Positions 1,112-62,022 are shown, numbered from the stretch's first letter. The stretch is 64,000 nt of DNA from Utricularia gibba (GCA_002189035.1 NEEC01000012.1:992001-1056000); one strand, 5' to 3'. Notes: a model not told the origin generated them from the sequence alone. A program made the numbers and translations.

Positions 1112-2400
1112 ATGGGTAGAAAGTCTAGCGAGCTAAACATTTCCACGATTCGGGCAAAATACTCGATCCCTGGTGAGTATGTTGTCAATCAAGCCAGGGA
1201 TTGGCAGATTCCATGGGGGACGGGGAAGCGACCCCTCCCCTGATTTAGCCTTCCAATTCCCCTAGCTTATCTGGAAAGCAGTCTTCGCTTTCCTCTTCAT
1301 CTCCTCATTGCCCATTTCTTGAACATGTTCGCCACTCCTCTTTTTTGCCTTTCCCCCAATTCAATATTTTGTTTTACCACCTTTCTCTTCTATTTGGCGG
1401 GTTTGGACCCGAATCTGACCCTGGTGGATTTTTTCCAACTTTTTAAAGTCGCTGTCTGTAAAGCTAAACGTCCGATGCATGGTTTTTCTCACTTCCAATT
1501 TTGCCGGTTTGAGGATCACCCCGATTTCATTCTCAAAGCTCCCGATACTCACCATAATTGGTGGACATCCTTTGTTTGAGTTGCTCCTCCGTTTGGGGCT
1601 AGATGGAATTTTCCAATCAAACCCCCACTCCTTTTAAGATAAAACTTTTCAGTCGCTTTCGCCCTTCTAAAGACTCTCGTAGAGATGTATATCAGAGACT
1701 GGCTGAGTGTTCCGTTAGATTCGAGTTTTGAGCCTCAATGCTTTCGTATGCCACCTTATTGACATGTGGCATCGTCGGCTGTAATCAGGACGGGCAATGG
1801 CCCGATTTTCTTATTCCCCCAGGCTCCGCTTTGGAATATCGGCACCTCTTGCAGTCTCCATGTAATGTTCCTTCTAATCCAGCTGCACTCTCCAGCCCCG
1901 ACCCGATACCCCCTTTTCCTTCTGATCTGACTCTTCAGATGGGGAAGGCGATCGACGATGCCAACTCCGAAAAGGAAGACTTTAAGACGCATTCTGAGAA
2001 GGTTGAGGAGGATTTGAAGTAGAGCAAAGAACATGTTTTGGCCTTAGAGGCCGAACTACTCGAGCAATAGGAGTCCCGGAGGGAGGTTTTGGAGAACTTT
2101 GTAAACTCAGCATGCTTCTCCGAGTTGTCGGAGAACGGCGCTAGATCAATAAGGAGTTTGGGCTATCCATTATGGATCCTCGTTTTGACAAGATCAACTT
2201 GTTGACGAAGGACGAGAACATGTTTGACGTTGTCTCGGATATCTCTCCTGCACCTAAATTCGTCTTCGAAGTGGATCGTGAACACCTAGGTGCACTTATT
2301 TGGGCCAGAGTCAATCGGGAGAATGAAACTAGGCTGTGGGCAAGACTACATGGGCATGTTGGCCCTTCAAATGATCCTCCTTCTCCTGAGCTTAAGTTGT
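1112..2400 (+). pseudogene. Antisense extra ORF of the gypsy element (gypsy-type 'Transposase_28'-like protein)
   Basis: Read on the plus strand, opposite to the element's gag-pol. From ATG 1112 the product begins MGRKSSELNISTIRAKYSIP. After a stop the frame continues with a segment rich in family-like phrases (LRFPLHLLIAHFLN, then FLFYLAGLDPNLTLVDFFQL, AKRPMHGFSHFQF and NWWTSFV). A charged, probably coiled-coil part follows around 1930-2110 (ANSEKEDFKTHSEKVEEDLK). The C-terminal part is near 2172-2390 (SIMDPRFDKINLLTKDENMF). Several stops and frame changes show it is dead. Tat-lineage elements are known to carry extra ORFs between pol and the 3' LTR, some antisense. The function of this protein class is unknown. 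Its position matches that pattern; the Pfam-type name is my recollection and needs a profile search. Confidence 0.6.
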
Positions 2401-3119
2401 TTTTTTTACTTTTCTACTATGCAGAAACAACATTCTTTTTCCCCGATGTTGGGGTTTTTGGATCTTTTTGGGAATTCCAACTTAGTTTGCCTAGTTTGTT
2501 TTCTTACTACTTCTTGTTCCGAATTGGTTTACGGTGCCCTTAAAGGGGCTTATATTTGGAGGGTTCACCGATGCCTTTGTGACCTGGGGGTAGGTGTTTT
2601 TGGGTCAGCTCTCGGGCTAGGCTTTTTGATCTTTGCATGCCTTAGGGTTTCCTTGCACGAGCGGGACCGCCGCTAGGGAAGTAGACTAAGACCCCTCATG
2701 TTTTGAGTGACTTCCCCGATCCGATTGGGCCCTCTTCTGGGTAGAATCCCGTTGTTTGGAACATGGGCGGATTTGCTCTGGGTGCTCTTGCCATCTCGAG
2801 ATTGGGTAGTAAGGTTTTGATCTAAGGGATTTTTTAGGGGTTTACACCGATGGTTTTTAGAGAACTGTTGCTCGAGTTATATCGGGGCTTATCCTCATCA
2901 CGGGTGCCCGGGTTTAGAAAAGCATGTGTAAACCAAGGGGGAAACCTTGAGTTGATCTACTGTCCCTGGGAAGGGCCACGGACCTAGAGTCAAGGCTTAT
3001 GACCTAGGTTGGGAGAGATTGCCTGGGCTTACGCAATTCGGCCAGAGCTTGTGTTTTCTAGCCAACTCTCCTCCGCTTTGGAGGAATGTTTTATCGTTTG
3101 AGTGTTCAAAGAAAAGAAA
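2401..3119. other. Spacer between the integrase and the antisense ORF
   Basis: GC-moderate sequence with ORFs only by chance. It starts with a pyrimidine-rich stretch (2398-2430). No domain was recognised. It is probably the untranslated spacer of the gypsy element, between the end of pol (minus strand) and the 3' end of the antisense ORF (plus strand). Confidence 0.4.
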
Positions 3120-4432
3120 TTACCAAATCCAAAGAGGACCCATGATAGATATTGGTGTCCAGATGGCTAGGCATAGAATCTCCTCAAATGTATCGCATTC
3201 CAGGATCTTGGGAGTTCCACACCATCTAACTGCTCTAGTCAATATGCTCCCTTTCCAGTTGCGATCTAATTTTCCCATGTGTCTCTGTGGTTGGATGCTC
3301 CGGAGGATCAAATCTCCTTCCGAGAATTCCCTAAAGGATACAGACTGATTGTAGCTTCGTTGTGTTCTTCTCTGATAAGCCCCTAATTGACTATAAATAT
3401 TTTGTTGCTTTTCTTCCAACAGTTCCAATTCCAGTCTTTGTAAGTCGGCGTCTCCTCCTCATTATAGTGTTCAACCCTGTAGCTCTTCAATGTTAGTTCA
3501 ATCGAACACACTGCTTCCAACCCATAAACCAGCAAGAAAGGAGACTCTTCCGTAGTGGTCTGAGGGGTGGTACGATACGACCACAACACCTCATCCAGCT
3601 GATCCGCCCATGATCCTCCGTAGTCTTCGAGTTTGGTCTTCACACCCTGCTTGAGTGTTCGATTCGTTACCTCCGTAAGGCCATTACTCTGAGGGTGGTA
3701 CACCGAAGTGAAGTTATGCTTGACTGAATATTTGTTTAAGAATGCGTCCATTGTTCCTCCCGCAAATTAGGTCTCATTATCGGTCACTAGTTCTCGAGGA
3801 ATCCCAAACCGGATGAAGATGTTTCTCCAAAGAAATCGGATAACCATCTCCTCTGATATCTTAGTCACAGATTCGGCCTCCACCCATTTGGAAAAATACT
3901 CGACTCCTACGATAACAAATTGTTTTTGACCTGACGTTTGGGGGAATGATCCCATAATATCTACCCCCCATTGTTCAAATGGGCATGAGAGTGGAAGAAC
4001 GGTCAGATCGTTTACCTGTTCTCTCGGAATGTTGGCGTGGTATTGGCACACCTTACACTTCCTCACCATTTCAGGAATATCGTGCTTCATGGTTGACCAA
4101 TAATATCCACTTCTCAAAGCCTTGCGGCATAAGGATCGCACACCAATGTGAGCTCCACACTCTCCCTTATGCAAGTCGGTTATAAGTTCTTGAGAGTGCT
4201 CCTTCCCTATACACTTCATTAGGGGTCCGTCAAGGGATCTACGGTAAAGATTCTCGTTCACTAGTGTATATCTCTTCGTCCTAGACTCCAACCATCTGGC
4301 TTCTAGTTTTATTGGTGGTGTTTCTCCTCTTTGTTGGTATCGAATATAGGGTAGGGTCCAATCCTCAAAAAGGTTCAGTTGCGATGAGATGTCGTTCCTT
4401 GGTTGTTGAGTAATATGATTTACTGCCCGCAA
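3120..4432 (-). pseudogene. Tat gypsy integrase (zinc-binding, catalytic core, C-terminal part)
   Basis: From 4432 leftward: an H2C2-type zinc-binding region (the H-x-G form ECGAHIGVRSLCRKALRSGY, then CKVCQYHA), then the DDE core. The first Asp is in WGVDIMGSFP, the second in LVTDNET, and the Glu in HPQSNGLTEVTNRTL. A stop or frameshift at about 3760 separates the second Asp from the rest (3751-3383, with WADQLDEVLWSYRTTPQTTT), and a third piece (3428-3120) carries the C-terminal SEGDLILR region. The catalytic residues are visible, but the chain is broken in at least two places. It would have joined the element's cDNA into host DNA; it is not functional now. Confidence 0.85.
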
Positions 4433-4559
4433 GGTTCCTGACTGTGAACCCTACAGCCGGACTGTCACACTTCCCTCCTTTAGTTCCGGAAGCCCTGCGG
4501 CAAACTTGGCGAGACTATCCACGAGTCCGTTTTCCTCTCACGCAACATGGGATAAGGTG

Positions 4560-5300
4560 AACTCCTTGAAAGTTTTGGCCAGCTTCTTTACCTTGACACA
4601 GTATAGAGCCATGAGGGGGTCATGAGCTTCATATTCGTCCGAATTCTGTCCTTACACAAGCCGTGATATAAATGTTGGAGGGCTTCATATTCGGCCACAT
4701 TGTTTGAGGCGGGGAACAGGAATTTTACCGCGATATAAATGTGTTCCCCATCCAGAATCCAGATGTCTATGCCTCCTTCAACCCCATTGTATGTTGAACG
4801 GTCGTTAATTTCCATAAAACGGTCAATAGGCTGGGTCATCTCAACCACAAAATCGGCAAGTTGTTGGGCCTTGATTCCTGTTCTCGATTTGAACTTGATA
4901 TCCATCATGCTCAATTCGACCGCCCATTTTGCGACCCTTCCAGAAATCTCTGGTCGAGATAGGATACTCTTCAAGGGCTGATTAGTGAATATCATGATGT
5001 GTCGATACTAGAAATATGATTGGAGCTTGGTGGCCGCCATTTTCAAAGCCAAGATGAACTTCTTTATCACTGTATCGAGTTTCGGCTAGCAGCAAGACCT
5101 TGCTCACGTAATACACCACCAAGTGTTTATCTCCCAAGATAGTTTTCAGGACTACACTCACAAGAACGGGGGATATTGATAGGTAAAGCCCTAGGGGCTC
5201 CCCTTCCCTCGGGGAAACTAGAAGCGGAGGCAAGGAGAGATATTCTTTGAGCTTCTCAAAAGCGATTTGTTAGTCTTCGTACCATTCTAAGGCATTTCCC
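4560..5300 (-). pseudogene. Tat gypsy RNase H and second (archaeal-type) RNase H
   Basis: The 5233-4982 piece holds the end of the first RNase H (VVYYVSKVLLLAETRYSDKE). Next, 4995-4588 reads IFTNQPLKSILSRPEISGRV and WAVELSMMDIKFKSRTGIKA, and then the second RNase H with LADFVVEMTQ and NNVAEYEALQHLYHG. The duplicated RNase H is the lineage mark. The usual acidic residue of the G-[AS]-G region is not clear, and the frame is lost after about 4620, so the domain is incomplete. Confidence 0.8.
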
Positions 5301-7027: not shown

Positions 7028-7216
7028 TTATTTTCCCAACAATTTGCACAGCCTGTTGATCGAATGCATATAACTCCATACGGATCGACGGATATCCCCC
7101 TCTTTAGATGACGCTAGTAGCTCGTCAACTTCCTTTTTCATAATGTTGCAGGAAGACCCTTGATCGATGAGGATCCTCCTCACCGTGGTTCTCCCGCATA
7201 TCCCGGTTACCACCAA
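7028..7216 (-). pseudogene. Tat gypsy aspartic protease
   Basis: The segment reads VVTGICGRTTVRRILIDQGS then SCNIM. The active site DQGSS fits the D-x-G-S-S form of Tat proteases. The remainder is cut by the solo LTR at 7011; protease-like sequence may resume left of 6508. It would have processed the gag-pol polyprotein. Confidence 0.7.
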
Positions 7217-8777
7217 AGATTCATTTCGTGCGGCTGCGCCAATGAGAATGTCTTTGTTAGAGAAATGGATCTCCTCCGTCTCCCATGCAGCTCTCTCAGA
7301 CTATCATTTCTCGATTTCGAAGATCTCTCCTTTTCTAGCCTCCTCCATATATCTCTTTCGTGATTTCTGGACTCGTCAATCTCGGTCCGCCCAGACACCA
7401 TGTGGATTTCACGGACGTAGGGGGGACTACCCTGCCCTCGATTCGTGTCTCTTGAACTTTCCGGTCTATCTTGGTCCCCTTCGTGGTTTGAGACTTCGCT
7501 AGCTCGCCAGATTCCTCCTATTGGTTTTGGGGGGAACTTCGGGTGTCGGCTGCCCTTGCTTCCCGTCTGGCTATCACGTCCCCTTTTTCGTTCTATCATC
7601 TGTGCAGGGTTCTGTATTGCATTGCTCATTCCACCACCCGTATGATACTACTCGATCATCTCTTCATTATTCGGCAGTTGACGGTGTCGTGTCCCGTGGT
7701 TTTATGTATTTCACAATAGGCCTCAGTTCTGGTTGGTTCCACCTGATATACCTCACGGCGTTTATTCGGTCGAGAGGGCCGGATAGGTTGCACTTCTTGT
7801 TGCGGTGCTGGGTGGATCTCTATGCAACTTTTCATCTCGACCTTGAGGTTGTTTTCAACTCAAATATACTTCATGATTTTTTGTAGCAATTCTCCGAGAT
7901 TCTTTGGTGGGGATTTAGATAGACTTTGACCCAACTTTGACGTTCCCAAGGCCCGCTTCATTATTTGTACCCTTTCCTTCAAATCTAGCTTGACGTCGTG
8001 TGCCATACAGTTGAATCGATCAATGAATTTCTTTAAGCTTTCTCTTCTATGGTCGTACCGAATGGAATACAATGCTGCCTTTAATGGTGGGGCTTTGATA
8101 TTTACAGCATATCGGGTGGTGAAGAGTAGCACCAACTCCCGATAGGATCCCACACTACATGGCTCTAATTGTTTGAACCAGATCTTGGCTCCCTTTTGGA
8201 GCGAGCATATAAACAGCTTACACTTTATGGCTTCCAAATGCTGCACCGTAGCCATCCTCATGTCAAAATCAGTCACGTGAGATATAGGGTCTCCCTTCCC
8301 ATCATATGTGGGCAGCCTATCGGTGACTCTGAATCCCCTTTCAGGCTCTTCTCGAATCAATTCATCCGGGAAGGGATCAAAGCGAAGTGCAGGGGTCTTT
8401 CCCGGATCTAATCCAATTCTCTCTTCAGTTCTTCTTCCCTTTTTTCTAGGACTTCATTACTCACGTCTTTCCTATCCGTTCCGGGCTCATAAATGACTTG
8501 GTTGCGCCTTTTCCTTCGCAGTATCTCCTCCTCGATTTCAGACTCAGTCTCCATGTCCGGGGTATTCTGGAATAAGAGGTTGCTTCTTCGCTCCTAGTGC
8601 AGTTTTGGGTGTTCCCTCTTGGGCGTTGGAGTTCAGACATGAAGGTGTCCTGAAGTCGGCAAGGATTTCTGTTAGCAGGGCCTTCAATTGTTCCCAACTG
8701 GTGATCATAAGACCAAGGTCTTGCACGTCGGCGCTTCCATCATTAGTCGGGTTGGTGGCTATGCTATTTTCCGCCAT
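7207..8777 (-). pseudogene. Tat gypsy gag
   Basis: Three pieces. 8777-8544 is the N-terminus starting MAENSIATNPTNDGSADVQD. 8360-7860 is the capsid region (RVTDRLPTYDGKGDPISHVT, GAKIWFKQLEPCSVGSYREL, FIDRFNCMAHDV), which fits the retrotransposon gag family. 7629-7207 is a basic Arg/Ser-rich tail, likely nucleic-acid binding. The start at 8777 lies about 60 bases from the primer-binding site, a usual distance. Stops and frameshifts separate the pieces. Confidence 0.82.
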
Positions 8778-9953: not shown

Positions 9954-12197
9954 CTTGATACTTCTTATGGAAGAAGCTTCTCTATTTGAGGTTTTTTTAA
10001 ACTTCAAGTGGTAGATAGAGGAGATATTTCATTCTCTTTGAAGGATGGCAGTCATAAAATTATCATGGATGTTCTGTACATTTGTGGGTTGAAATGCAAC
10101 ATATTGAGTCTTGGATAATTGCTTGAGAAGGTCTTTGAAATGATTTTAATAGATAATAGGTTGGAAATCATGGTTGAGAAGAAACGGTGAATTGTCAATG
10201 TGCAAATGACATCCAACCATATGTTCTTGTTGAAAATTAATCATGCCTCCCCAATATGACTGAATTTATGCTATGATTCAAAGGCATGCAAATGGCATAT
10301 GAGGAATAGTTATCTAAATTTTGATGATTTTTCTATACTAAGTAGAAGGGACATGGTTAGAGAACAGTCAATTATATCCTATCCCAATCAATTATGTGAA
10401 GTATGTGTTGTAGGAAAGCATGATAGGATTCTGATTCCCAAACATTCCACCTTTCTTGCAACTAAGTGCATGGAACTAATTCATGGAGACGTGTGTGGGC
10501 CTATCAAACCAAGTATACTTGGAGAAAATAATTATTTCCTATTATTTGTTAATGATTACTCTCGGAAGACATTGATTTATCCAATGAAAAAAAAATCTGA
10601 GGTCTTTGGTTTGTTTCAGCAGTTTCATGCCATGGTTGAATGTCAAAGTGGCTTGAAAATCAAGTCTTCAAAGTGATAGAGGTGGTAAATTTATTCCAAA
10701 TGATTTTAATAAATATTGCAAAGAACTTGGTATTCATAGATCTCTTACAACTTCACGAACAGCACAACAAAATGTGGTGGTGAAGCGCAAAAATCATATT
10801 GTTTCGAATATGGCTCACAGGTTACTATACTAAGCAGATGCCTAGTAAATTTTGGTGTTATGCTGTAACTACTGCCGTTTATTTGATGAATAGATCAGTC
10901 ACACAAAGTCTGAATGGTCTAACGCCACAAGAAGCTTGGAGTGGTGTAAAGCCAAGTGTATCTCATATATTTGGATGCATCTGTTATGTTCACATTACTG
11001 ATGCTTTACAAAAAAAAACTTGATGAAAAAGAAGTCTGAAGATGGTCTTTTTTTGCTATGAGCAGAACTCCAAGGGTTATAGAGCCTTTAATCCTGTTAA
11101 AAAAGAAGTGATTTTTATTAGAGATGTCACTTTTGATGAGACATCTAATTGGGGCTGGCAAGCTTCACGATAGGAAATTGATTCCTATATTTACGTTAAT
11201 GACAATGATGAGTAGCAGCCACTACATGCAGGTGATAATAATCTCCAGCATTAAGAATAAATAGTTGTCAATGCCAATGCATCCCAATCCATTCCAAGGA
11301 GGAGAGTTAGAAGTATTCCAAGGTGCTTTGATGACTTTGTCGTGAACTTCCTTGAATCCTTACGTGCAAAAGGAGAAAATTCCAATATTCTGCATGAAGT
11401 GAGCAATTTCTCACACTTTTTCTTTATAGAGATTGATAATTCTAGAATTCAAAGATGCAATCCTAAAATAAGAATGGAGGGATGCAATGGATGAACAAAT
11501 CAGTGCCATTGAGAGGATTAATACCTAGGAATTGGTTGACAAAATTTTGAATAAAACCATCATTGGAGTCAAATGGGTGTATCAAGTTCAAGTCCAAAAT
11601 TGTGGCCAAAGGATACAAATAAAAGGAAGGGATAGATTTTAAAGAGGTCGTTGCTCCAATGGCATATTTGGAGACTGTTCATTTGATTCTGTCCATGGCC
11701 ACTCAACGTGGATGAAAAGTTCATCAAATGGATGTCAAGTCAGCATTTTTGAATAGGGAGTTTGAGGAAGAAATATACATTGAGCAGTCTTTATGATTTG
11801 TGAACAAGTTGCATAGAGATAAGATATAAAGCCCTTATATGGTTTGAAGCAGGCTCCTTATGTTTGGAATATGAGGATTCATTCTTATTTGATAAAATCC
11901 AATTTTCACAAATGTCCTCATCAACATGCCCTGTATTAAAGTGCAGTAAGGAGGTGATATTTTTTCTGAACTATTTATATACGTTGATGATTTGCTCTTA
12001 ATAGGCAGCAATCCTCCAAATTTTGATACTTTCAAGCAAGCCATAAAATCTGAATTTGAGATGTTTGATTTAGATCTGATGAGTTTTTATCTTGGTATCC
12101 AAGTAACACAAAAGGATGAGAGAATTTTTATCTCCCATCAAAGATATGCATAGGGCATTCTAAAACATTTTGGAACTGATTATTGTAAGAAAGATGA
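9949..12197 (+). mobile_element. Ty1/copia element, middle part: protease end, integrase, reverse transcriptase
   Basis: The copia gene resumes with LDTSYGRSF and FSLKDGSHKIIMDVLYICGL, the protease end. The GAG-pre-integrase domain follows (RNSYLNFDDF, then LCEVCVVGKHDRI). The integrase core has HGDVCGPIKPS, with the first Asp, and the reading is open over 10299-10676 and 10799-11023 (LTGYYTKQMPSKFWCYAVTT). The reverse transcriptase starts near 11490 (IIGVKWVYQ; KVHQMDVKSAFLN) and carries the catalytic YVDDLLLIGS at about 11980. There are many frameshifts and stops. It ends at 12197, where the solo LTR inserted. Confidence 0.88.
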
Positions 12198-18960: not shown

Positions 18961-20196
18961 TTTCAGAATGATAAGAAAGTGAAAATATCTGCACACATGG
19001 AAGAACACGCCATAGACTTCTAGGAGGGGGATCTGAGGAAGAACTTACAGGATGGAATGAAGAACATGAACCAAGAACCAAATCCTCTTTTGAAGACTTC
19101 TTTCGCTTCTGAAAAACATTACTCCTATCTCAAAATAGTTTTAGCTTTTTCATGTAACTGTTTACGATTATAGTATATTTTGTTTCTTTTCTTGTTATTA
19201 AGTTGTGGAACAAAGATGATTTTTATGTTATGTTATGAAAGTATTTTATTTTCCCTTAGTGTGAGTAGCTAGTCACTTAGGGGTGCCTTGGTACTAAAAA
19301 AGGATAATGTGCAAATCATCATTTTGATTTTATTAATCATAAATCACACAACTTCCTTACCAAATAGGATAGATCCAAAAGGAAGAGGTAATGAGACTTA
19401 TCTTAAACAATTCTAATGAGAGGTAGATCAAAGATTAGAAGAAAATAAGAGTTTAGGTAGACCTAAAGAGTGATATGAAAAACTTCTATGCTGAACTTTT
19501 AGTTATGGAAAAGTAAAAGATATATTTTTTTCAAAACATCATTATTTTCAAATAATAAAAGTATTTTTAAAATCATATGATAAAAAAAACTTTTGAAGAA
19601 GTCATAACGTGTGTGCTTTTTCAAAAATTTGTTGCCCAACATGTGGTACAAAATTGAAGAGTACTTTCTCTTAGGGCTGTTGCTTACGATATGGTGTGAA
19701 TTTTTTCTGTTTTCCCTTTCTTTCCTTATTTTTCTTCTATTTAGGTGGCTGCATTCCATAGGTCACTAATTGGAGTTCTTCAATATCTCAACTAGTTGTT
19801 TGATTGTAATTCTTTCTATTAGCAGGCCTTTCACATCACGATATTGAATGTTATATCTTGTTTTCTAAAGTTTTGATTTTGTTTTTATTTTTCTCTATCT
19901 CATTCAAAAGAATGGGGCGATTTTGTAACTGAGGACTTTTCAATTGAATTCATTGAAGAAATTTACCCTAGTACATTACATAAGATGAACTCAATTAATA
20001 CCTACATTTTCAATGGAATTAATCCATTTTTTTGTTTGTTGTTTCACCTTTGAGCTTGGTTGGTCCACATCTACATCCTCTGTGATCAAGTTAGGCACTG
20101 TAGTGGGTCTGTGAACCATAGGTCACCTTCTATTGATCCTTAGCAATTGTATATGGATCACTTTCACATATATATATTTATGGTGTAGAGATATGC
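18961..20196. other. AT-rich stretch without a recognised gene
   Basis: Noncoding by inspection; nothing recognised up to the left target duplication of the MULE. Confidence 0.35.
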
Positions 20197-20205
20197 CTCA
20201 CCGGG
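20197..20205. repeat. Target-site duplication of the MULE, left copy
   Basis: CTCACCGGG at 20197-20205 matches CTCACCCGG at 28187-28195 in eight of nine positions. Nine bases is the length typical of Mutator-like elements. Confidence 0.6.
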
Positions 20206-21400
20206 GGAGTTTTTACCAAATCCACCCACTACAAAAAAACTCAGTTCAAAACCATTCACTTTGTACATCTCACCTCAATTGCATGTCAAAACCACCCATC
20301 CTACCGATTTTCTTTTTTATTTTTGAATTTCTTTTTGACAACATATTTTGATACTATTATATTTTTTACAAAAAAATAAAAATGTATTACATTCGTTTTG
20401 CAAATATTGTAATAAATATTATTAAAGTATCTTTTTTAGAATTCAAAAATTATATTAAAAAAAATAAAATAAAATTATATTTTTCATAATTATTATATAT
20501 TCAAAAATATATACAATTAAATAATGGAAAAATAAATAATTTAAACAAAACGAAAAATCAAATTATATTATATATTCTTTTACAAATAATAAATCAAATT
20601 AAAAACCATAAATATCGCTTCATTTAACTTTTTCATTTTAATATTTTTTATTTATGTTGATTGGTGTAATTCATTAATTACAATTATCAGAAATAAAAAA
20701 AACATATATAAAAAAAACAACAATTACATATTTATATCGATCACTACAATTCATCAACTATACTTACCAAAAATGAAACTAATAGAAAGAAAATGATAAT
20801 TACATATTTCTTCCAATAGCTATAATTCATCAATTACGGTTATCAGAAATAAAATTAATATAAAAAAAAATAATAATAGCCCATTTCTAACAATCACTAT
20901 AATCATCAATTATAGTTACCACAAATAAAAATAATATAAGAAAAACCACAATCATTTATTTCTGTCAATCACTATAATTCATCAATTACATTGATTAGAA
21001 AACATGGTGATAGTAGTCTATTAAGCAAAAGTGTTCCGAACAAACATAAAAGAGGAAATAAGAATTACTCGAGTAATAGCATGTATCTCTAAATTTTACG
21101 GTCACCGTAATTACCGATTACAGTTACTAGAATTGAAAGTAATATAATGAAATGATAACCAATTTCTACGGATCACCGAAATCATTAATTACAGTTACTA
21201 CAAAAAATGTTTATAATACTTCATTAAGCTAAACGATGATTACCTATTTCTGCTGATCATAGTAATCATCAATTACAGTTACCAGAAAATATGCTTATAG
21301 TATTCTACCAAGCAAAATGACGATTACCTATTTTTGCTGATCACCGTAATCATCAGTTATAGTTACTAGATAACAATAAAGAAAAAGTGCTCCTAATATG
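20206..21400. repeat. Left terminal inverted repeat of the MULE with internal tandem units
   Basis: After the terminal block and an AT-rich stretch, the phrase 'atcatcaattacagttacca' or a variant recurs from about 20660 to 21375. The last units are about 85 bp (each with 'gattacctatttctgctgatca'). The mirror-image array lies at 26985-27410. Confidence 0.75.
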
Positions 21401-21423
21401 CATAATGAAATAGAAAATTAAAA

Positions 21424-23021
21424 TTACTCTGGTAATGCTTTGTAATGCTCCCAGTCTGGATGGTCTTCATTCATTGGGGCTTGACCATTACGAAAATCAC
21501 GCACAAAGGATGGTATATCAGATGCATCTATAAGTTCATCAAGAAAAGTCTTCATCTCACCCCCTTCCATAAAAGATGAATCTTTTTTATGATCCATGTG
21601 CTTGTAGGAGTATGGAAATATGACATTGTCAACCTATTTGAGAACCATTAAAGTATAATCTAAACTAAAAAAAATAAAATTTCACTTATGAAATTTTTAA
21701 CTAAAATTATTACCGGATTTGTTGTAGACTCGTATTGGGAATCATCTACCAACAAGGTGTTACCATGTATATACTGGCTATGAAAAGCATCATCCTCCCA
21801 TATTTTTCGCAACTCTCTCAGCAAAACCATACTTGGTGGCTTCTTGAGGACTCAAAGGTTTATGATGGTGCATTTCGTTCCATCCCATATGAATGCCAAA
21901 TTTGACATCTTCTCGCCAAACATCCAGTTAATGACTTGGCTTAGTTGTGCACTGTTACAAAAAGAATAACATGTAAAACATATATATAAAAAAGATAATA
22001 TAATATTTTGTATATTACCCTCCACGTGAGGACCTTAATGCAACATCAAAATGTTGCATACACAATTCCATGAACTTCCTAGCATTTGGTCTTAGAAACA
22101 CTGAAAATATAGGGTTCAGTGTTTCTAAGAATGAAACCAATATAGCATTTGTTTCATTCAAGTCAATAAATTAGCAACTAAACATATGTTGCAAATGTGT
22201 GAAATACTAAATAAATACCATATTTGCTCGCCCATAAATCCACTTACCGGGATGCCCTTTGATGGTTGATGATGAATGAAAAATAATATCAGCAAAACTG
22301 CCATTGACGTCGAATACTACTAATTTCCGCACCATTGGAATATGACTACTTGATTCACAGAAAGAAGGCCATCTGGATTGATACCACTTTAGTTGTTGCT
22401 TCAACGCCTTATTTTCAGCTGCCAAATCATTGGTTTCATTGTAAACTACCACATCTTCGTGTAAATCATCAGCATCATTTCTACTTTGATCATCCACATC
22501 ATCATTTTTCTTTGTAATCCTTTTTTTCCCACACCAACACTTGGCTGTGTCCCGGACTCTAAAGATGGGAGGTAGGATTGTAGTCAATAACCTAGTCTGT
22601 CCTTTAAAGGAAGCAATGAATTCATCAACGACATCCCTTGGTAACATCTCAACACCTAATAGCAAGCATAAGTAAATTAGATCAATAAAATCAGAACAAT
22701 TCACATAAAAAAACATAGTATAAAAAATTGTTTAACACATAAAATACCTTGTGGTTTTCTCATAAGATGAGAATTTGGAAGTGTGCGTGGAAAATCATTT
22801 GGTAAATCTTCAGGAGGAGAAACCCATACAAAACTTGTCCACCAACTATCATAGTCACTTCGTAGAACTTTCACTAATTTAATTGTAGACTTACTCTTTA
22901 TCACATAATTTGGTGAATTCTTTATTCGACTAAACATGCACACAGCAAAGAAATAAGCAATTCTAGGGAAATGCTTTCCTCGCAGGCAATGTAAATCGAT
23001 GCCAATATATATGCCACTCAC
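21424..23021 (-). pseudogene. FCP1/HAD phosphatase-like gene inside the MULE, five exons, one stop
   Basis: Exons on the minus strand: 23021-22748, 22655-22248, 22100-22019, 21951-21714, 21633-21424. Every junction has GT...AG and phases match throughout (1, 1, 2, 0), giving 404 codons including the TAA. Seen in order: an N-terminal part with DSWWTSFVWVSPPEDLP, an Asp-rich acidic part, a coiled-coil-like LAAENKALKQQLKW, HAD motif I KLVVFDVNGSFAD, motif II HFDVALRSSR, then WDGTKCT, motif III NTLLVDDSQYE and IFPYSYKH. Motif I has D-x-N rather than D-x-D, as some plant FCP1-like proteins do, so catalysis is uncertain. One in-frame TGA in exon 4 (after CTIINL) fits a CpG change. It would be a nuclear-type Ser/Thr phosphatase relative. 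Start is provisional; further 5' exons are possible. If the stop is a sequencing error the gene is intact. Confidence 0.8.
22091..22129. repeat. Perfect hairpin over an intron acceptor of the FCP1-like gene
   Basis: Arms of 15 bp (CTTAGAAACACTGAA at 22091-22105 and its reverse complement at 22115-22129) with a 9-base loop. The acceptor AG of intron 2 (22101-22102) lies inside one arm. Confidence 0.85.
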
Positions 23022-24009
23022 TTATGAGTCAAATGTGAAAATGAAATTTGAAGGCATTTCAAAACTTGCAACATAAATGGTACCACTAGTACACGCAAGC
23101 CACATCTAAGGTGCTTAGTGCTGATAGCAAAACCCTACAACATAAAAAGAAAGAATGCCATCTATTCTTTTTAGATTTACTCACAACATTGATCAATACA
23201 GTGTCAAAAAGTTTCAGATAAAACAAATGTTGTATGTTTTTAGATCCTCGTGAAATAGAGAACCCAATGCTATGACCATTAAGATATAAAAAACAAACAA
23301 AAATTACACATAAAGCATACCTGTTCTTGATGATTAAACCTTTGAAATGTGAAGATTGACACGGTAGTTGAAGAAGAAAGAGACGAATTGTGTAAATAAA
23401 TTTTTAAATTAATTAATTTGTTTTGTAAAACCCAATTTAATAAATTCAGGAAAATTGTCAGTCTGTTTAATCGGGAACCAAATGATACTTTTTCAATCAG
23501 AGATACTGAAGCATGTGATAAGTGGAAGGCACGTGAAGTAAAATTAGATGTGATTCTGCTAAAAATAGCAAATTTACAGATGGTCACCATAATTGAATAT
23601 AGTTATGATCATATATATCTTTTTTTACATCTATTAATGTTTTGAACACCATAAAACCTATAAATGCATCTGATTAATGTTTTGAAGATGGGATTATAAA
23701 ATATAATCATATATTGAACATAGTTATGAATTACATATGATTTTCAACTTATTACAATTTTTTTTACATACATGAATAAGATTCAAAAAAATGTGAAATG
23801 AATGTGTATGTAGTGTTTTTGATATAGTAATGAGAATGTGTTTCATTGTAAAAAATTCTTCGATTTCGACTTTTTTTACTCAAAAAACAGGAAAAGTATA
23901 TACATACTTTCTATTGCATCATACACATACACTTAATCACAAGTTTTTAGGTTGTTAAACATACTAAACCTTAATTAATTTGTGTAATTTTGATTATATC
24001 TTTAGATGC
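23022..24009. promoter_or_regulatory. Shared spacer between the divergent FCP1-like and transposase genes
   Basis: About 1 kb, AT-rich, between the FCP1-like gene start (minus) and the first recognisable transposase codons (plus). It must hold the promoters of both if they are transcribed, and perhaps 5' exons. Scattered TATA-like runs exist, but none can be singled out. Confidence 0.35.
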
Positions 24010-26953
24010 TGACTGGTTTCTCCATTACGGTGTGCCGCCTATATTCCATTATCAGCCGAAAAACACCGACAACTACATGTTCCAAGATCAATAAAGTCTA
24101 CTGACATGTGTCCCCATGTTTTGGACTCACATGCCTCAATCACATGACCGAATTGTTCAAATTGAAAGAATTTTGAAAACCATTCTTCCATCCCTCTCCA
24201 GAACCTCATCTTCTTTCAAGCTCATTCTTAAATATCTCTCTATTTGGATGGCTTTCAGATCACTCTCATACAAGGTCTTCTTTGGAGGTCAAATCTATAA
24301 TTACGGGAATTACATAAGTTATAGTGTGGCACCAATCTAGTTTTTTAGTCAGATGCCGATATTTCATTGGAAGAATTAAAAGCAAGGTTATATGAGATTG
24401 TTCAATTGTCTTCTTCGAGGTTCAATCTTAGATTATCAGCCCAGTTTTTTCATGTTGTGACTAGAGAAACGAGGTATTTGAATTTAAAGACACAGAGCAA
24501 CCATGATTATCTTCATGAACCTAACCATGTTATTACTTTGCTGGATTTATTTGTGGAATACGACCCATTTTCTTAAGAAGAACCTCACTCACAATTTGGA
24601 GAAAACGGTAATGACTATTTCTTTCTTGTAAATTTAGAAATTGTATATATTTTTTTTAATTTTATGGTATTCTATTTTTCTGTAGATGAATATATGGATT
24701 ATGATTTCGATCCAGTCCAAAATATTGATGGCGATTCATTTATGCAATTCATTAATGAAAATGAGGTTCCCGATATTGATCATACTCCTCAAAACTCAGA
24801 AGGCGAAAAGAATGTGCTTGAAGGAAATGCAAGTTGTGATTCGGAATGGTTTCCTAACTCAGGTTTACATGATATAGAGGAAGAATCAAGTAATCATGGA
24901 GTATATACACATCAATATGAACCGAGATTCAAGGAAGGTGATCTATTTGAAGATAAAGAAGATTTTTGAAGACAAGTTAGAGAATTTTCCATTGAAATTG
25001 AAAAGGAGTTCATTGTTGGTGATACTGAGCCTAGAGTCTTAGAGATGTATTGCAAACAACGTGATACTCAAAATTGTCACTAGAGGATTCGCGCATTGTA
25101 AACGATTGGGAAAATGGAAGATCTCAAAGCTTATTGAGCCTCACACATGCAAGTGACAAGGGGCGGGATTCTTTTATCACAGAAACATCAATCATGATTA
25201 TATCTCTGAGATTGCTAAGCAATATATTGAAGCAGACATTGGGACCAAAGTGTCAACTATTATTGCAGCTGTATTGGATAGAACTGGTTATGAAGTACCA
25301 TATAAACGTGCATGGTATGGAATGGGAAAGGCCTTTGAGAAGGTGTATGACACATGGGAGGAATCAATGAAGAAACTTCCAGCTTTCTTAAATGAAGTTG
25401 CCTTACAAAATCCAGGCACCGTAATCCAATGGAGGAATAAGGAAGATGGAGTCACATGGCACTATTACTTTTAGGCATTTGGACCATGTATACATGCCTA
25501 CCAGCACACCCGTCCGGTTATTTCAGTTGATGCAATGCACTTGTATGCAACATACAGGCACAAAATGCTCATTGCAGTGACTATCTCTCAATGTGGAAAG
25601 ATTTTGCCACTTGTCTTTGCCATAATAGATGAAGAAATTGATGCTTCTTGGCTATGGTTTCTAGAGCTAGTGGAAACTTACATTGCTTTAGGAAAACCCA
25701 CGTGCTTGATTTCTGATAGATGTGACTCTATTCGAAAGGCAACAATAAGAGTTACAGCATTCAGTGAAGAATTCAGAGGATGTCATCGCTATTGCTTTCG
25801 TCATTTTCGAGCAAATTTCTTTGACAGATTTAAATCTGAGACGTTCACTGGGTACGTGGAGAAATTCTATGATTATATAGAAGAGCTCAGAATGATAAAT
25901 ATTGCGGCTTGGAACTACTTAATGAATGTTGCTCCTAAAGCTTGGACAATATCTCATGATGGTGGCCGAAGATATGGAACAATAACTACCAATCAAGTTG
26001 AAGGAATGAACGGTGTTTTGAAAGAAGCACGACATCTCCCACTTACGGCTTTGGCTCAGATATGATTAATTTGTGTTTTTTGTTTTAAATTTAATGAAAA
26101 TTTTGAATGCAAGCTACATTTGCTCGATGCAAAAAGTATATTTCAAAAGGTTTGGAGTTGGCATTAGAGGCGCAAAGGAAGAATCAAGTCCTTTCGACAC
26201 AAGCGCAACGACTGTTTGATAATTGGGACAAGCCTAATCCTTATTCAAGAGTAGAGATTTATGATCGTTATAAAATGATTGTTCAAGTAATCACCTGAAA
26301 GAAAGCAAATGGGAAAGATAGCATTTGCGTGGTGCGCATCAAGGAGGGCACATGCACATGCTGCAAATAGCAAAATTATGGAATACCATGCTCACATGCA
26401 CAATAGGTTAGACTATTATTTAATAATGTTCATTTATTCAATATGAAAGTCATGTTTATTTTAGGCGTGCAAAAGACTTGGAGTTGATTCACGACAATAT
26501 GTGGATCCCATACACTTACAACAACATTTTTTGAAAGCATACAAGGTCCAATTCCATCCACTTCGAGCAGAGAGACATTGGCCAGCAACAATGCCTCTCA
26601 TTCATGATCCTACATGTAAAAAGGTGATTAGACATGATGGTACATTTAGTTCACGATATAGGATGAATATGGATAGGGGAAGGAGCATAGGAAGGAGAAG
26701 TGGACATAATGGGAGACCAAGATTTTCACAAGATACAGCTTCACATGCACATAGTCCACCTCAGAGCCATTGGGTATCTATTGATGTACCATATCACCGT
26801 GATTTCGAAGGTGTTTCTCAACAACCACGGTCATCTCTTCAAGAACGACCTCAAGGTATGAACACTAGGTTTGATCTTCCTAGCTCGTCTACTCAACAGC
26901 CTAGGAAGCAGAAGTCACTTATGCATAAATTTTTTGGGTCGTTTATGAAATAA
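24010..26953 (+). pseudogene. MURA-type MULE transposase
   Basis: The N-terminal part (FGGQIYNYGNYISYSVAPI; ELKARLYEIVQ) is followed by an acidic region (24664-24969). The MULE transposase domain spans 25250-26060: VDAMHLYATYRHKMLIAVTI, IDEEIDASWLWFLELVETYI, CFRHFRANFFDRF. A short intron-like gap follows at 26061-26107. At 26300-26405 is a SWIM-type zinc finger (GTCTCCK...YGIPCSH). After a second gap comes the C-terminal tail VDPIHLQQHFLKAYKVQFHP, ending at the stop at 26951-26953. Stops are seen near 24969, 25080, 25130-25200 and 25472 (TAG where the family has Trp). It would cut and join the MULE ends. Dead or nearly so, but the domain core is well kept. Confidence 0.85.
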
Positions 26954-26984
26954 AGATAAATATTATCAATATGTAAAATACTAT

Positions 26985-28186
26985 TTGCCTGGTAACTGTA
27001 ATTGATGAATTACAGTGATTGGCATAATTATGCACTTATCGTTTCTTTTATATTACTTTTGTTTTTGGTAATTGTAATTGATGATTACAGGAATTGTCGA
27101 AAATAAACAATTTTCGTTTTGGTTACATTACTTTCATTTCTGGTAACTATAATTTATGAATTACAGTGATCACCAGAAATAAGTAATTGTCATTTTCTTT
27201 ATATTACTTTCATTTTAGGTAACTGTAATTGAGGAATTACAGTGATTGGCAGAAATATGCAATTATCATTTTCTTTATCTTATTTTTATTTCAGCTAACT
27301 ATAATTTATGATTGCATTGATTGTAAAAAATAGAGAATTATTGTATTACCTATATTACTTTCTGGTAACTGTAATTGATGAATTGTAGTGATTGGTTAAC
27401 ATAAATTATCATATGTAAAATTTGTTTTCACTAATTGAAATACAATTAGTATATAGTAAAACATGATTTCTATTATTGTATTATAAAAGAAATCAACACA
27501 TTATAGATATATATGTATTATAATGATTCATATAAGATATATCTTTGTATTTTTTCAAAAAAATCCAATATCTTGTGGAATATTATAAATATAAATATTA
27601 TATTTTTTTTCTATTTTAAAATTGTTGTAGATTTCTAATAACTGTAATAGATTATTACGATGCTTGAAAGTCTCGGATACTGTAATTTATATTGTAGACA
27701 TCAATTTTAATATAAATTAATATATGTAAAATTTGTTTTCATTAATTGAAATATAATTATTATATATAGGAAAACATGATTTCTATTATTATATGTTCAA
27801 AAATAATGATACATATAATATATATGTATTATATTTGTAATTTCAAAAAAACGTAAATATCTTGAGGAATATTAGAAATATAAATATGTGTATTTTTTAT
27901 TTTAAAATTATACAATTATAATTATGAGTAAGTTTTTTGAAAATATTTTATTAATTTGTTAGTTTGAGTGACATAAACAGTTTTTTTAAAAAAATTGACA
28001 TATTTATAACAGAAATTATATTATTTACATGTATATATTTATTACATTTAAATGTGTACGATATCTAAGAAGAAAAGCAATTGAAAAAAGAATAGAAAAA
28101 GTTAGGATAGGTGGTTTTGTCCAAGTGCACACAGTGAGTGTTTTTGGAATTATGTTTTTTGTAGTGGGTGGTTTTGAAAATGACCC
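26985..28186. repeat. Right terminal inverted repeat of the MULE with internal tandem units
   Basis: From 26985 to about 27410 the phrase 'ggtaactgtaattgatgaattacagtgattgg' and variants recur about six times, with unit length near 76 bp, inverted relative to the left array. AT-rich DNA and the terminal block (28085-28186) follow. Confidence 0.75.
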
Positions 28187-28195
28187 CTCACCCGG
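28187..28195. repeat. Target-site duplication of the MULE, right copy
   Basis: CTCACCCGG, partner of 20197-20205 with one mismatch. Confidence 0.6.
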
Positions 28196-31481: not shown

Positions 31482-31880
31482 ACTAGGCCGTGCAAGGTTA
31501 GAAGGACTGGCTTTAACATCATTGGTAACAGATCCATATGTTTTTTCACCTAATGTTGTTAACAAAATAGCTTCAATAATTGAATTATTATTAGTTTTGA
31601 GCTACTTGCTAGTAAAATAGGATAACTATTATGCTAATATTTCAGTTTTAAGTATGCAAATTTATTATATACACAATTGATATCTATTCACCAACACATT
31701 TAAATGATTCAGCAAAACTGACTTGGATCAATTTTGTCTAATATTTAACAAACATCGTTTGTGAAAATTGGATGGATATAAGGTCATTTTTGTTATAATC
31801 CATTCCTAATATTTATAAATTAGATATATTTGATCCTTATTGTTTCGTAATTAGTGGCAACCACAGATTGCAAAATTATT

Positions 31881-31888
31881 ATATATAT
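31881..31888 (+). promoter_or_regulatory. Candidate TATA box of UGT copy 1
   Basis: ATATATAT about 150 bases before the ATG; the same place in copy 2 has TATATA (61873-61878). Weak evidence in an AT-rich region. Confidence 0.3.
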
Positions 31889-32038
31889 CGTGATATTTTT
31901 ACTGCTTAGAAATTATATGCGGAAAAAATTAAATAATTTAAAATCTTGAAAATCTTAAATCAATAATACTTGATAAAATGCTACGAAACTTTACCCGTCC
32001 GCGTCGTCTTCGTTTTCACTCAGCTGCATGACCAACAA

Positions 32039-33646
32039 ATGGCGGCGGAGGAAGAGAAGAAGCTCCACGCCATCGTCATCGCACCTCCATACCAAGGCCA
32101 CATCAATCCCATGACCAATCTAGCACTCAAGTTCGCTTCCAATGGAATTGTAGTTACCTTTGTCCACTTTCATCATATTCACCACAAACTCTTAGCAAGT
32201 CACGGCGGGGCAGATGCCGATCCTTTCTCCCGCGCACGGGAATCTGGCCTCGATATTCGTTACGAAACGGTAAGTGATGGGTTTTCTTTGGAATTTGACA
32301 GGGAGGAGCATTTCGAGGAGTACATACGAGGGGTTATTGAACGAATCCCATGGATTATGGAGGCGTTGGTGAAGAGGAAGATGGCCGAATTCGATTCGGT
32401 TTCGAATTGGGTCAATTTTTTGGTCTACGATACTGTCCATTTTTGGATTCCAGACATCGCCCAGAAATACAAAATCGTCAACGTTTCGGTGTGGACTGAA
32501 CCAGCGCTCGTGTTTTACTTGATTTGCAATTTAAAGCTTCTTCGAGAAAACCACCATTTTCCTTGCAAAGGTACTTCACTTCTAAGCTTCTTTTGATCCA
32601 CTTTATGCGTCAATTTCATTTGTTTCGTTTTTTCTTCAAACTTTCTGACATTGTTGTTTATGTGAAATGTTTACAAGCAGAGGATGCTGATGAAGAGATA
32701 AGATATATCCCAGGAATCTCTTCGATCAATACGAGGGACTTGATGACATTTTTCAGAGAATCCCAGGCATCAGGAGTCATTGCGTTGCTTCTTTCACAAG
32801 CTTTTGAACAAGTGTACAAGGCTGATTTCATTCTACACAATACGGTGGAAGAGTTAGAATCCCAAGTTCTCTCAAAACTCAATGTGCGTCAGCTAAACTA
32901 CGCCATTGGCCCACTAAATTTCGTTGAGGATTTAGTTTCATCGGAACCAATTAAGAAAAGTCTGTGGCCGGAGTTCAACTGCAGCCTGTGGCTCAGCTCC
33001 AAGCAACCTGGCTCGGTTCTATACGTGTCGTTTGGAAGTTTCGTTCATTTGAGCAATGAGACTATTGATGAGATAGCTCACGGCCTTCTTCTCTCTCAAG
33101 TGAACTTTATTTGGGTTCTTAGGACAGGCATTTCCAAAGATAGGAGTACTCTCAATTTGCCTGTGGGAATGGAGAAGATGAATGACAAAGGGATGGTAAG
33201 TTGAGGATTTGGTTTTTGTCTAATCGTTGACCACAGAGTTGATAAGTCATATTTTTGATGAACAGGTGATCCCATGGTGTAATCAGATCGAGGTTCTTTC
33301 ACATCCTGCAGTGGGAGGATTCATGACACACAACGGATGGAATTCGACGATCGAGAGCATCTGGTTCGGGGTTCCAATGATCTGTTTCCCTTGCATGAGT
33401 GATCAAGTCACTAACAGGAAGCTGGTAGTTGAAGATTGGAGTATCGGGCTGGATCTCTGCGATGGCAAGTTTGTGGATAGAATGGAAGTTGCAGAGAAGA
33501 TCAAGAGGCTGTTTGCCAGCAACGAATTGAAGCAAAAGGCAAAAGATGTGAAAGAGATCGTGCGTGGTGCTTTTCAGGTCGGCGGTACTTCCCACCGGAA
33601 CTTCGACCAGTTTATGGACAAGTTGAAGCACAAATGTTCATCTTGA
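32039..33646 (+). CDS. UDP-glycosyltransferase, family 1, UGT86A-like (copy 1)
   Basis: Exons 32039-32570, 32681-33195, 33266-33646; all introns are GT...AG and phases fit; 475 aa, normal for plant UGTs. The enzyme should move a sugar from a UDP-sugar to a small acceptor in the cytosol. The N-terminus MAAEEEKKLHAIVIAPPYQG ends at the catalytic His (QGH, residue 21). The family signature box (PSPG, 44 residues) starts WCNQIEVLSHPAVGGF and ends FPCMSDQ; the last Gln favours UDP-glucose. In the box the usual THCGWNS is THNGWNS. The phrase AIGPLNFVED precedes the linker, and SVLYVSFGSF is present. The wording (WC-Q-EVLS-PAVGG, NRKLVV-DW-IG) is closest to UGT86A proteins; the substrate is unknown. 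Start: an in-frame ATG at 31970 would add 23 residues, but the MAAEEEKK start matches copy 2. Confidence 0.93.
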
Positions 33647-33902
33647 ATTTACACATGGGGATTGCTTATTTAATTGAATATCTGATCCTCTATGTTTTAA
33701 TGCTGTTAAATGTATTGGAATACTAGGAAATACACTTTGAATTTGCTTATTGGATTAATAGTATGATCCCCGGCCACAATTTGAATGCTTTTTGTCTTGA
33801 ATGAAATACATCATTTGTTGTGATGTGTGCTCTGCGGTCGGTCTTGAGTAGCTTCTTGGAACCGTACAACTCGACCAGCAATATAAACCACCGACAATAG
33901 CC

Positions 33903-49149: not shown

Positions 49150-49640
49150 CATTCAAGGGAGCTTGAATGACCGAAGATTCAATTTGTTTAAGAGCTTTCC
49201 AATTGACTGTGTAAGGAGGAGCTAAAAAGTGGTTCAACTCACTAAAGCCTGGAAGCATAACCGATTGGATTGGAATAAAGAAGGTGTTTTTGAGCAAATA
49301 TTTTCTGGCTTGCGAGGCTGAAGGAATTAGAAAAGAGATTAGTGATGTTGAACAAATGAGTGGCGAATCATTGCACGAATATTGGGAAAGATTTAATCAT
49401 CTTTTGGGTTCTTGCCCACACAATGATTTTCACACCAATGCTTTGGTCAAATATTTCTATGATGAACTCTTATGCATTAACCGAGCCATGATAGATTCAG
49501 TGGTAGAAGGATTTCTAAGGAAGAAGACACTAACCGAAGCTCTTTCCTTGCTTGATGAGCTAGCTGAGCATTCTAAACATATTATCAAGAAGCAAACCTC
49601 AAACAAGAGGGTGTATAAAGTAGAGACTAAGCCTAGGATT
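49150..49640 (+). pseudogene. Athila-type gypsy gag
   Basis: Reads FKSFPIDCV, then WIGIKKVFLSKYFLACEAEG, IRKEISDVEQMSGESLHEYW and ERFNHLLGSCPHNDFHTNAL, ending VYKVETKPRI. The phrase SGESLHEYWERF is the gag signature of this lineage. A frameshift lies near 49260; the C-terminal 120 residues are open. It would form the particle shell. Confidence 0.82.
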
Positions 49641-49829
49641 TAAGAGACTGAACTCACAAAAAATGTTGCTGCTATGTCTGAAATGATGAAGGAGCTGTTC
49701 TTATTCGAAGCTAAGAACATGCCATGTGGAAACTACCACAGAACAAGACATGTTGTGAACAAGTGTCCAGATTTATTTGAAGAAGAGCATGTCAAGGCTA
49801 TGTGATATTTGGAAACTACCCCAAAAAGC

Positions 49830-50343
49830 GTAAGGATCCGGGTGGGTTTATTATCCCATGCAAAATAGGAGATTTGCACATCAGGAGAGCCATGGCAGAT
49901 CTAGAAGCTTCTATAAATGTCATGTCGGAAATTCTGTTTATGAGGCACTTATGTTGGGTCCTTTGCAAGCATCAGTTATACAAATTGAGCAAGTTGATAG
50001 GAGAGCAATTTCTCCCAAAGGTTTTGTTGAGGATGTTCTGGTGAAAATTGAGCATCTTGTATTCCCAACTGATTTTTATGTGGTGAGCATGCCCACTAGA
50101 GGATCAAAAGACACGACCATCATCATGGGGAGACCATTCTTGAGCACTTCAAATGCTATCATCAATGTCAAAATGGGAACCATTGAGCTTTCTATTGATG
50201 AAGACAAAATCACACTAAACATGAAGGATGTGAAGAATTATCCCAGTGATTTTGAGAGCATTTTTGTTGTGGATGTCATGGATGGACTAATTGATGAGCA
50301 CTTGAAGAAGGAAATTCAAGAAAAAGAAGAGACTCATGAATAA
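49830..50343 (+). pseudogene. Athila-type aspartic protease region
   Basis: Reads FIIPCKIGDLHIRRAMADLE and ASINVMSE. The active site is DLEAS where the lineage has DLGAS, so the conserved Gly is lost. After a frameshift near 49930 it continues FVEDVLVKIEHLVFPTDFYV and TIIMGRPFLSTSNAIINVKM, the usual I-x-LGRPFL flap-side motif. Inactive. Confidence 0.82.
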
Positions 50344-50391
50344 TCTTTATTTGCAAAATTAGAAGCTGAAGAAAAATTTGAGCAACTAAAT

Positions 50392-50915
50392 GTGGTGCAA
50401 GCCAAGACTCAAGAAGAGAGCTTAGCTAAATTGAAACTACTGTCTAACTATTTAAAATATATTTTTCTTGATGCAGAGTTCAGGAACCTTGTTATCATCT
50501 CTACTGGTGTGAGCCCAAACCAAGAGTTGCGATTGCTCGAGGTGCTGAATAGAAACAAGAAGGCAATAGGTTGAGCACTTGATGACATTGAGGGGATTTG
50601 CTCATTCATATGCATGCACAGAATATTCCTAGAGGATGGTGCAAAACTAGTTCGTCAACCTCAAAGATGCCTCAACCCGAACATGATGGAGGTGGTAAGA
50701 AAAGAAATTGTTAAATTTCATGATGCAGAGATTATTTATTCTATCACAGATAGTGAATGGGTGAGCCTCATTGACGTTTTGCCAAAGAAGACAGGGATGA
50801 CTGTGATGGAAAATGAGAAAGGCAAGCTTGTTCCACAAAGGGTGCAAAATGGATGGCGCATTTGCATAGATTATCGAAAATTAAATGAAGTGACAAAGAA
50901 AGACCATGTCGTTGT
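50392..50915 (+). pseudogene. Athila-type reverse transcriptase, N-terminal part
   Basis: Reads KLLSNYLKYIFLDAEFRNLV, RNKKAIG, a stop, ICMHRIFLEDGAKLVRQPQR and GWRICIDYRKLNEVTKKDH, then stops matching at about 50912. The catalytic YADD part is missing from this end of the element. Confidence 0.82.
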
Positions 50916-52544: not shown

Positions 52545-53298
52545 CTAGCAGTAGGTAGTACATCGTGTGCGGCTACAATTTTCATAGAATGGTTTCAATT
52601 GATATTCATTTATCTTGATGCTTTTTCTTGTCTCAAATGAACGAATAACAAAAGTATCAAAGGGAAAAACATGCATAACTTTATAAGCTCCAAGCCACTT
52701 GGAACATAACATTTCTGAAAAAAGTTTCAATGTGATGTCAAACAAAATAACTTTTTGACTAACTATAAAATGCTTCACATGCAACTTATTAGCATGGAAG
52801 CATTTTACATTTTGCTTGTCCAGAAGTTGGTTGCTATAGGCATTGAGATGAATGTATTTTAATTCATTCAAGTCTAAAAGCATATTTTTGCCAGCTTGGT
52901 CACTAGTAATATTGTATACTTTGATTGGCCCCATATGTGCTTTGATGAAGTTCGACAGGAGAATGGTAAGTCTTACCACAAATCATGTGGTATGGAGATA
53001 TCCCAATTGAATTCTTGTAAGCAATGCAATATGCTCATAATGCATCATCTAATCTTAAGTTCCAATCTCATTTATTTGAGTTCACAATCTACTCAAACAT
53101 CCTCTTCACTTCTCAATTTGATATTTCCACCACGGCATTTGTTTGAGAATGTCTATTTATAGAAAGGTGATGAATGACTCCATAATTGACTAGTGCACTT
53201 TTTATGGCATGATTCATGAAATGGGTGCCACGATCATAGATGATGATTTTTAGATGACCAAACCATGGAAATAAGATATTGATTAAGAAATAGCTCAT
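52545..53298 (-). pseudogene. Athila-type gypsy integrase, fragment
   Basis: From 53298 leftward: IIIYDRGTHFMNHAIKSALV holds the second catalytic Asp region, then YGVIHHLSINRHSQTNAVVE ISN with the Glu. A gap follows, then 52979-52545: LNELKYIHLNAYSNQLLDKQ, LLFDITLKLFSEMLCSKWLG and YKVMHVFPF, the usual C-terminal KLFPGKL-SRW-GP region. Several breaks. Confidence 0.78.
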
Positions 53299-61864: not shown

Positions 61865-61872
61865 TCAATTAT

Positions 61873-61878
61873 TATATA
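61873..61878 (+). promoter_or_regulatory. Candidate TATA box of UGT copy 2
   Basis: TATATA about 150 bases before the ATG, at the position matching the copy 1 candidate. Confidence 0.3.
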
Positions 61879-62022
61879 TGTCGTGATATTTTTTGCTTAA
61901 AAATTATATGCGAAAAAATTAAATAATTTAAAATCTTGAAAATCTTAAATGAATAATACTTTATAAAATGCTACGAAACGTTACTCGTAGTCTTCGGAAT
62001 CACCCTGCTGCATGACCAACAA

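Follow-up and report, generated by a model that had tools for sequence, protein, structure and literature searches.

A gene joining Transposase_28 and HAD domains lies beside the transposase in MULE, hAT and PIF/Harbinger transposons of one plant genome

The stretch of DNA analyzed here, hereafter the window, comprises 64,000 nucleotides of a 100-Mb plant assembly (C244:992001-1056000; element coordinates are counted within it) and contains a Mutator-like element (MULE) in which a second gene stands head-to-head with the transposase. This gene, which joins a Transposase_28 domain (PF04195) to an FCP1-like HAD domain, occurs in the same genome in two families of MULEs, in hAT elements and in PIF/Harbinger elements, and it must have moved between them. 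Its fixed placement beside the transposase in at least three unrelated kinds of transposon suggests a common helper or a device for escaping silencing and not chance host DNA. From its presence, order, orientation and gene tree, we tentatively read the Transposase_28-HAD gene as an accessory gene exchanged between transposon superfamilies, whose function would be regulatory and possibly anti-silencing; we place this reading somewhat short of an even chance.

Two genome searches located the gene at a minimum of 112 clustered loci. Linkage to transposons was assessed from the match coordinates of MULE, hAT, Myb and DDE_Tnp_4, a neighbor being counted within 7 kb of a locus, and the null was obtained by moving the loci 20-200 kb along their own contigs in 300 trials, which keeps the regional density; all counts of linkage and arrangement are lower bounds among the matches listed, in one genome. 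Such a neighbor was found at 85 of the 112 loci, against a null mean of 19 and a null maximum of 29. The other 27 loci had no assigned transposon neighbor, and some of these may be fragments or host copies.

Order and orientation are fixed as well. DDE_Tnp_4 lies upstream in the same orientation in 32 of 35 cases and Myb downstream and convergent in 22 of 26, and at 13 or more loci the Transposase_28-HAD gene is flanked by the two Harbinger genes (transposase > gene < Myb), DDE_Tnp_4 on one side and the Myb/SANT open reading frame 1 (ORF1) on the other, in the same order and orientation. The hAT transposase is upstream in the same orientation at 17 or more loci and downstream and convergent at 5 or more. 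MULE transposases are upstream and opposite (head-to-head) at no fewer than 11 loci, and upstream in the same orientation, the tandem arrangement of the second MULE family, at no fewer than 6; L060 and L073 belong to that family. At L072 the gene has a Myb/SANT ORF1 on one side (PF12776, E 4.8e-12) and, on the other, a piece of a DDE_Tnp_4-like transposase (E 0.013, weak alone). At L070 and L071 a hAT transposase lies upstream (Dimer_Tnp_hAT, E 1.9e-21; hAT RNase-H; a weak zf-BED), and a hAT transposase adjoins the gene in an 8-kb homologous unit present at two sites. Downstream of the gene at L069 (C402:1725500-1734000) is the terminal part of a hAT transposase in convergent orientation, and at this locus an ACX4-like acyl-CoA oxidase/dehydrogenase gene, named by eye and apparently a normal host gene, stands directly upstream (positions 2400-4440). 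The CACTA Transposase_21 gave no match in this genome; its control was equally silent, which makes the result uninformative.

In the window, both genes are enclosed between terminal inverted arms at 20206-20267 and 28126-28187, as a preliminary description of this DNA had claimed, although the extent given there (21424-26953) was too small. At the left end, the homology of approximately 15 sister copies stops at 20204-20207. Inverted ends are accompanied by a 9-bp target site duplication (TSD) with one mismatch, within the 8-11 bp expected of MULEs, and the transposase contains the domain PF10551 (E 1.7e-12, above the cut-off). The features of the element are as follows, with the strand given where there is one.

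20196-20204: left TSD, CCTCACCGG; differs from the right copy at one position, register uncertain by 1-2 bp
20205-28185: complete MULE of 8.0 kb, delimited by the shared loss of homology of copies and by the terminal inverted arms
20643-21408: tandem palindromic repeats in subterminal position, spaced at 76 and 84 bp, directly after the stop codon of the Transposase_28-HAD gene
21424-21633, minus strand: fifth exon, with TAA at its end
21714-21951, minus strand: fourth exon, with HAD motif IV LVDDS and an in-frame TGA at 21852-21854
22019-22100, minus strand: third exon, with HAD motif II LRSSR
22248-22655, minus strand: second coding exon, with HAD motif I FDVNG and the coiled-coil-like linker that contains the CWCG motif
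22743-23134, minus strand: remnant of the Transposase_28 (PF04195) exon; first ~39 codons gone, one frameshift, one stop
23135-23144: deletion point; 733-904 bp absent here are present in six sister copies
24349-26953, plus strand: MULE transposase gene, its reading frame broken by frameshifts and stops; domain PF10551 lies at ~25517-25811, 5' start tentative
26984-27420: subterminal tandem palindromic repeats, 76-bp spacing, directly after the transposase stop codon
28186-28194: right TSD, CCTCACCCG, pairing with the left TSD

The same head-to-head pair, with the FCP1/NIF-like gene on the minus strand and the transposase on the plus strand in the window, was recovered by genome search in at least nine further copies. 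The close copies (75-90%) include C414:307-311k, C244:739-743k, C3:5.056-5.062M, C451:3.998-4.002M, C317:872-877k, C98:2.923-2.927M, C244:1.115-1.119M and C413:3.177-3.182M. The preliminary description would have regarded the gene as a passive single capture if the pair were never found together inside shared terminal repeats; the pair is found together, and a single passive capture is therefore excluded. L042 (C317:1896877-1900470), a deletion derivative of the window MULE, has lost the Transposase_28-HAD gene but kept the transposase, which now adjoins the left end directly.

Re-reading of the minus-strand gene in the window confirmed much of its earlier annotation: all four introns are GT..AG, the motifs FDVNG, LRSSR and LVDDS are present, the TGA reported in exon 4 is there, and the FCP1/HAD-like identity is upheld by the NIF profile PF03031 (E 2.5e-5; 24.5 bits against a cut-off of 21.8). 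The gene had also been called nearly intact and taken for an FCP1-like host gene alone, and neither description holds. Its N-terminal half is Transposase_28, encoded by an upstream exon that had been missed, and because the start of this exon was lost in the 733-904 bp deletion and a frameshift and an in-frame stop have been added, the window copy is a dead, 5'-truncated pseudogene. The joined reading of the remnant stays below the Pfam cut-off (E 0.0013; 19.4 bits against 26.2), whereas relatives exceed it with 31.8-42.8 bits (E 3e-8 at L069, 1.7e-7 at L071, 7e-10 at L072 and 6e-11 at L073). The undamaged protein consists of Transposase_28, a linker with the CWCG motif and a coiled-coil-like stretch, and the HAD/FCP1 domain, in this order. 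Active HAD phosphatases carry a second Asp in motif I. In every clade examined, damaged copies aside, motif I of the Transposase_28-HAD protein is DxNG, with Asn in place of this Asp, and thus departs from the catalytic motif DxDx(T/V) of FCP1/NIF phosphatases. A PDB sequence search with the HAD half gave no meaningful match, and an NCBIfam search gave none.

The hAT and Harbinger carriers have a palindrome in common, of 33-34 bp (CCAGGCACC-N15/16-GGTGCCTGG), which forms tandem arrays located internally, between the genes. Genome-wide, exact sites number 16 on each strand reading, and sites with up to two mismatches number 121, against 0 for a reversed-pattern control (fixed 16-base gap). The matches listed make up 35 arrays, of which 22 have the Transposase_28-HAD gene within 4 kb, compared with a null mean of 1 and a maximum of 5 in 500 trials; most of the remaining arrays sit in PIF/Harbinger copies in which the distance between Myb and DDE is too short for the gene. 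The palindrome was also seen near convergent Myb and transposase genes, with no Transposase_28-HAD gene detected, at C1:4.169-4.173M, C413:2.341-2.345M, C2:2.094-2.098M, C328:99-102k and C304:78-80k, which are PIF/Harbinger copies or pieces. In the window MULE, the palindrome family is CTGGTAACTGTAATT-GATG-AATTACAGTGATCACCAG and lies directly 3' of both stop codons, such that the element combines a non-transposase gene with motif-bearing tandem repeats, as VANC-carrying elements do. The likeness of the MULE half-site CACYGTAAT to the hAT/Harbinger half-site CACCGCAAT is only suggestive.

In a maximum-likelihood tree of 31 copies of the gene, the two MULE families (MULE-A and MULE-2) and hAT-B each form a single group with full support, the PIF/Harbinger and hAT-C copies fall into additional groups that branch in no settled deep order, and the element-type labels fit the tree with the smallest possible number of changes. 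The gene tree thus largely tracks element type and implies at least two ancient transfers of the gene between superfamilies, after which it was kept. Between superfamilies, the proportion of nonsynonymous differences (pN, 0.29-0.45) is far below that of synonymous differences (pS, 0.72-0.86, saturated), which points to constraint on the protein over deep time. For close pairs, the pooled ratio of nonsynonymous to synonymous substitution rates (dN/dS) of the FCP part is 0.61 against a simulated neutral range of 0.64-0.69, although a few pairs are constrained; for the MULE transposase it is 0.39 against a simulated neutral value of 0.74. The gene is therefore not better preserved than the transposase, contrary to the preliminary description. 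That description had also named neutral evolution of the FCP1 copies as a sign of passive capture: recent pairs are indeed near-neutral, but the deep divergence of the protein is constrained. Its alternative of a MULE accessory protein gains support and a wider scope, since another MULE family, hAT and PIF/Harbinger carry this gene too.

In the mechanism that we infer, the Transposase_28 half would act as a dimer and bind the tandem palindromes found where the element genes have their 3' ends; this domain is predicted to be DNA-binding in Retand elements (PMC11963269). The HAD half might act on or dock to a phosphorylated nuclear partner, which could be a silencing factor or the tail of RNA polymerase II; the Asn of motif I would favor docking or a weakened enzyme. 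As a result, the element genes would stay transcribed or unmethylated, as with VANC for VANDAL elements. A wider version, which we consider rather unlikely, is that the gene constitutes a cassette that plant DNA transposons in general can exchange and that counters silencing or controls transcription, acting through a palindrome common to unrelated superfamilies and reaching the Retand retrotransposons by its first domain.

Several results weigh against the proposal of an accessory regulatory gene. Recent gene pairs are under little or no purifying selection, and phosphatase activity of a DxNG protein is doubtful, since Asn replaces the second Asp of motif I. The MULE palindromes differ from those of hAT and Harbinger, and exact palindromes occur in at least five PIF/Harbinger copies without room for the gene. 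The ends of the 8-kb hAT unit showed no clear terminal inverted repeat (TIR) or TSD for enclosure by hAT TIRs with an 8-bp TSD, and the fold model of Transposase_28 was poor (predicted local distance difference test, pLDDT, 55), with no significant PDB match.

The main rival, in our judgment unlikely, holds that the gene serves transposition itself, as a transposase partner of the kind that PIF/Harbinger has in its Myb ORF1 and MuDR in MURB, and that the palindromes are transposase sites or end-binding sites. The fixed place of the gene beside the transposase in every family and the position of the window repeats inside long terminal inverted repeats would suit such a partner. However, PIF/Harbinger copies already possess the Myb ORF1, many relatives do without the gene, the hAT and Harbinger palindromes are internal, and it is hard to picture one protein serving the transposition chemistry of three unrelated transposases. 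A selfish module, in which the gene and its repeats spread between elements by recombination or nested insertion with no benefit to them, would explain both the presence in unrelated superfamilies and the near-neutrality of recent pairs; we nevertheless find it improbable, given the single order and orientation per element type in deep clades, the low pN relative to pS between superfamilies, and the lack of terminal repeats of the gene's own at the loci read.

Capture of host genes by MULEs does occur, and the superfamily of the HAD half is one of host proteins; that a single MULE passively took up a host FCP1-like gene as Pack-MULE-type cargo is nonetheless very improbable in view of the approximately 112 transposon-linked copies, the three superfamilies and the transposon-specific Transposase_28 half, and we reject it on the further head-to-head copies and the linkage count. 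Hardly any likelihood attaches to the idea that the co-occurrence merely mirrors the clustering of transposons in repeat-rich regions: the copies do sit in transposon-rich stretches, but the shifted-locus null, which keeps regional density, stays far below the observed linkage, and strand and order are fixed; this explanation is thereby rejected too. Our preferred reading remains the accessory regulatory gene.

The nearest precedents are VANC of VANDAL elements and the TET/JBP transposons of fungi. The general kind of such a gene is already known, because in fungi TET/JBP genes are carried by DNA transposons of many superfamilies, hAT and Harbinger among them, have been transferred from lineage to lineage and are proposed to counter silencing (PMC12730594). 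Both cases involve one accessory gene in several unrelated superfamilies; TET/JBP, however, is a demethylating enzyme of fungi, whereas the present gene belongs to a plant, encodes a protein of no known activity that joins Transposase_28 to an HAD domain, and involves MULEs and a shared palindrome. VANC, the anti-silencing product of a non-transposase gene of VANDAL MULEs, removes methylation and recognizes short motifs that it binds where they have built up as tandem repeats (PMC5735166), and such repeats likewise lie in non-coding parts (PMC5735166, PMC10398659). VANC has been described from VANDALs, whereas Transposase_28-HAD also occurs in hAT and PIF/Harbinger, and the likeness concerns gene context and repeats, not sequence comparison. 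The TRP28 (Transposase_28) antisense ORFs of Retand long terminal repeat (LTR) retrotransposons share the domain PF04195, their transposon-borne state and their proximity to tandem repeats; they are predicted to bind DNA, their function is unknown, no HAD domain was reported, and no TRP28 similarity was found in other known transposable elements (PMC11963269). For this genome, that absence is contradicted: the domain resides in DNA transposons, as part of a fusion with HAD. MULEs carrying ULP1 (Kaonashi/CUMULE) similarly have a conserved enzyme-type domain as an extra gene, but theirs is a SUMO protease domain, reported in MULEs (review PMC13317346). FCP1/SCP-type phosphatases (NIF, PF03031) agree with our protein in the NIF profile as a whole and in HAD motifs I, II and IV; they differ in having DxDx(T/V) where it has DxNG, and in the transposon-type N-terminal domain.

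In a literature search restricted to papers available without subscription, we found no publication describing a Transposase_28-HAD gene and none joining MULE, FCP1 and transposase. As far as that literature shows, an accessory gene crossing transposon superfamilies is of a known kind, and the protein, the host kingdom, the involvement of MULEs and the shared palindrome are new. If the gene is a helper common to MULE, hAT and PIF/Harbinger, then unrelated plant transposons swap non-transposase tools, as fungal ones do with TET/JBP. Transposase_28, a widespread Retand domain of unknown function and unsettled origin, gains a partner domain and candidate DNA target sites, and the shared palindrome yields a protein-DNA hypothesis open to a single binding assay.

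Elsewhere in the window, pieces of LTR retrotransposon polyproteins surround the MULE (3383-5007, 7207-8453, 10260-10676 and 49215-52982), and a UDP-glycosyltransferase-like gene is present in two copies, 31874-33896 and 61867-63869, which lie 30 kb apart in the same orientation with 93.6% identity over 2.0 kb.

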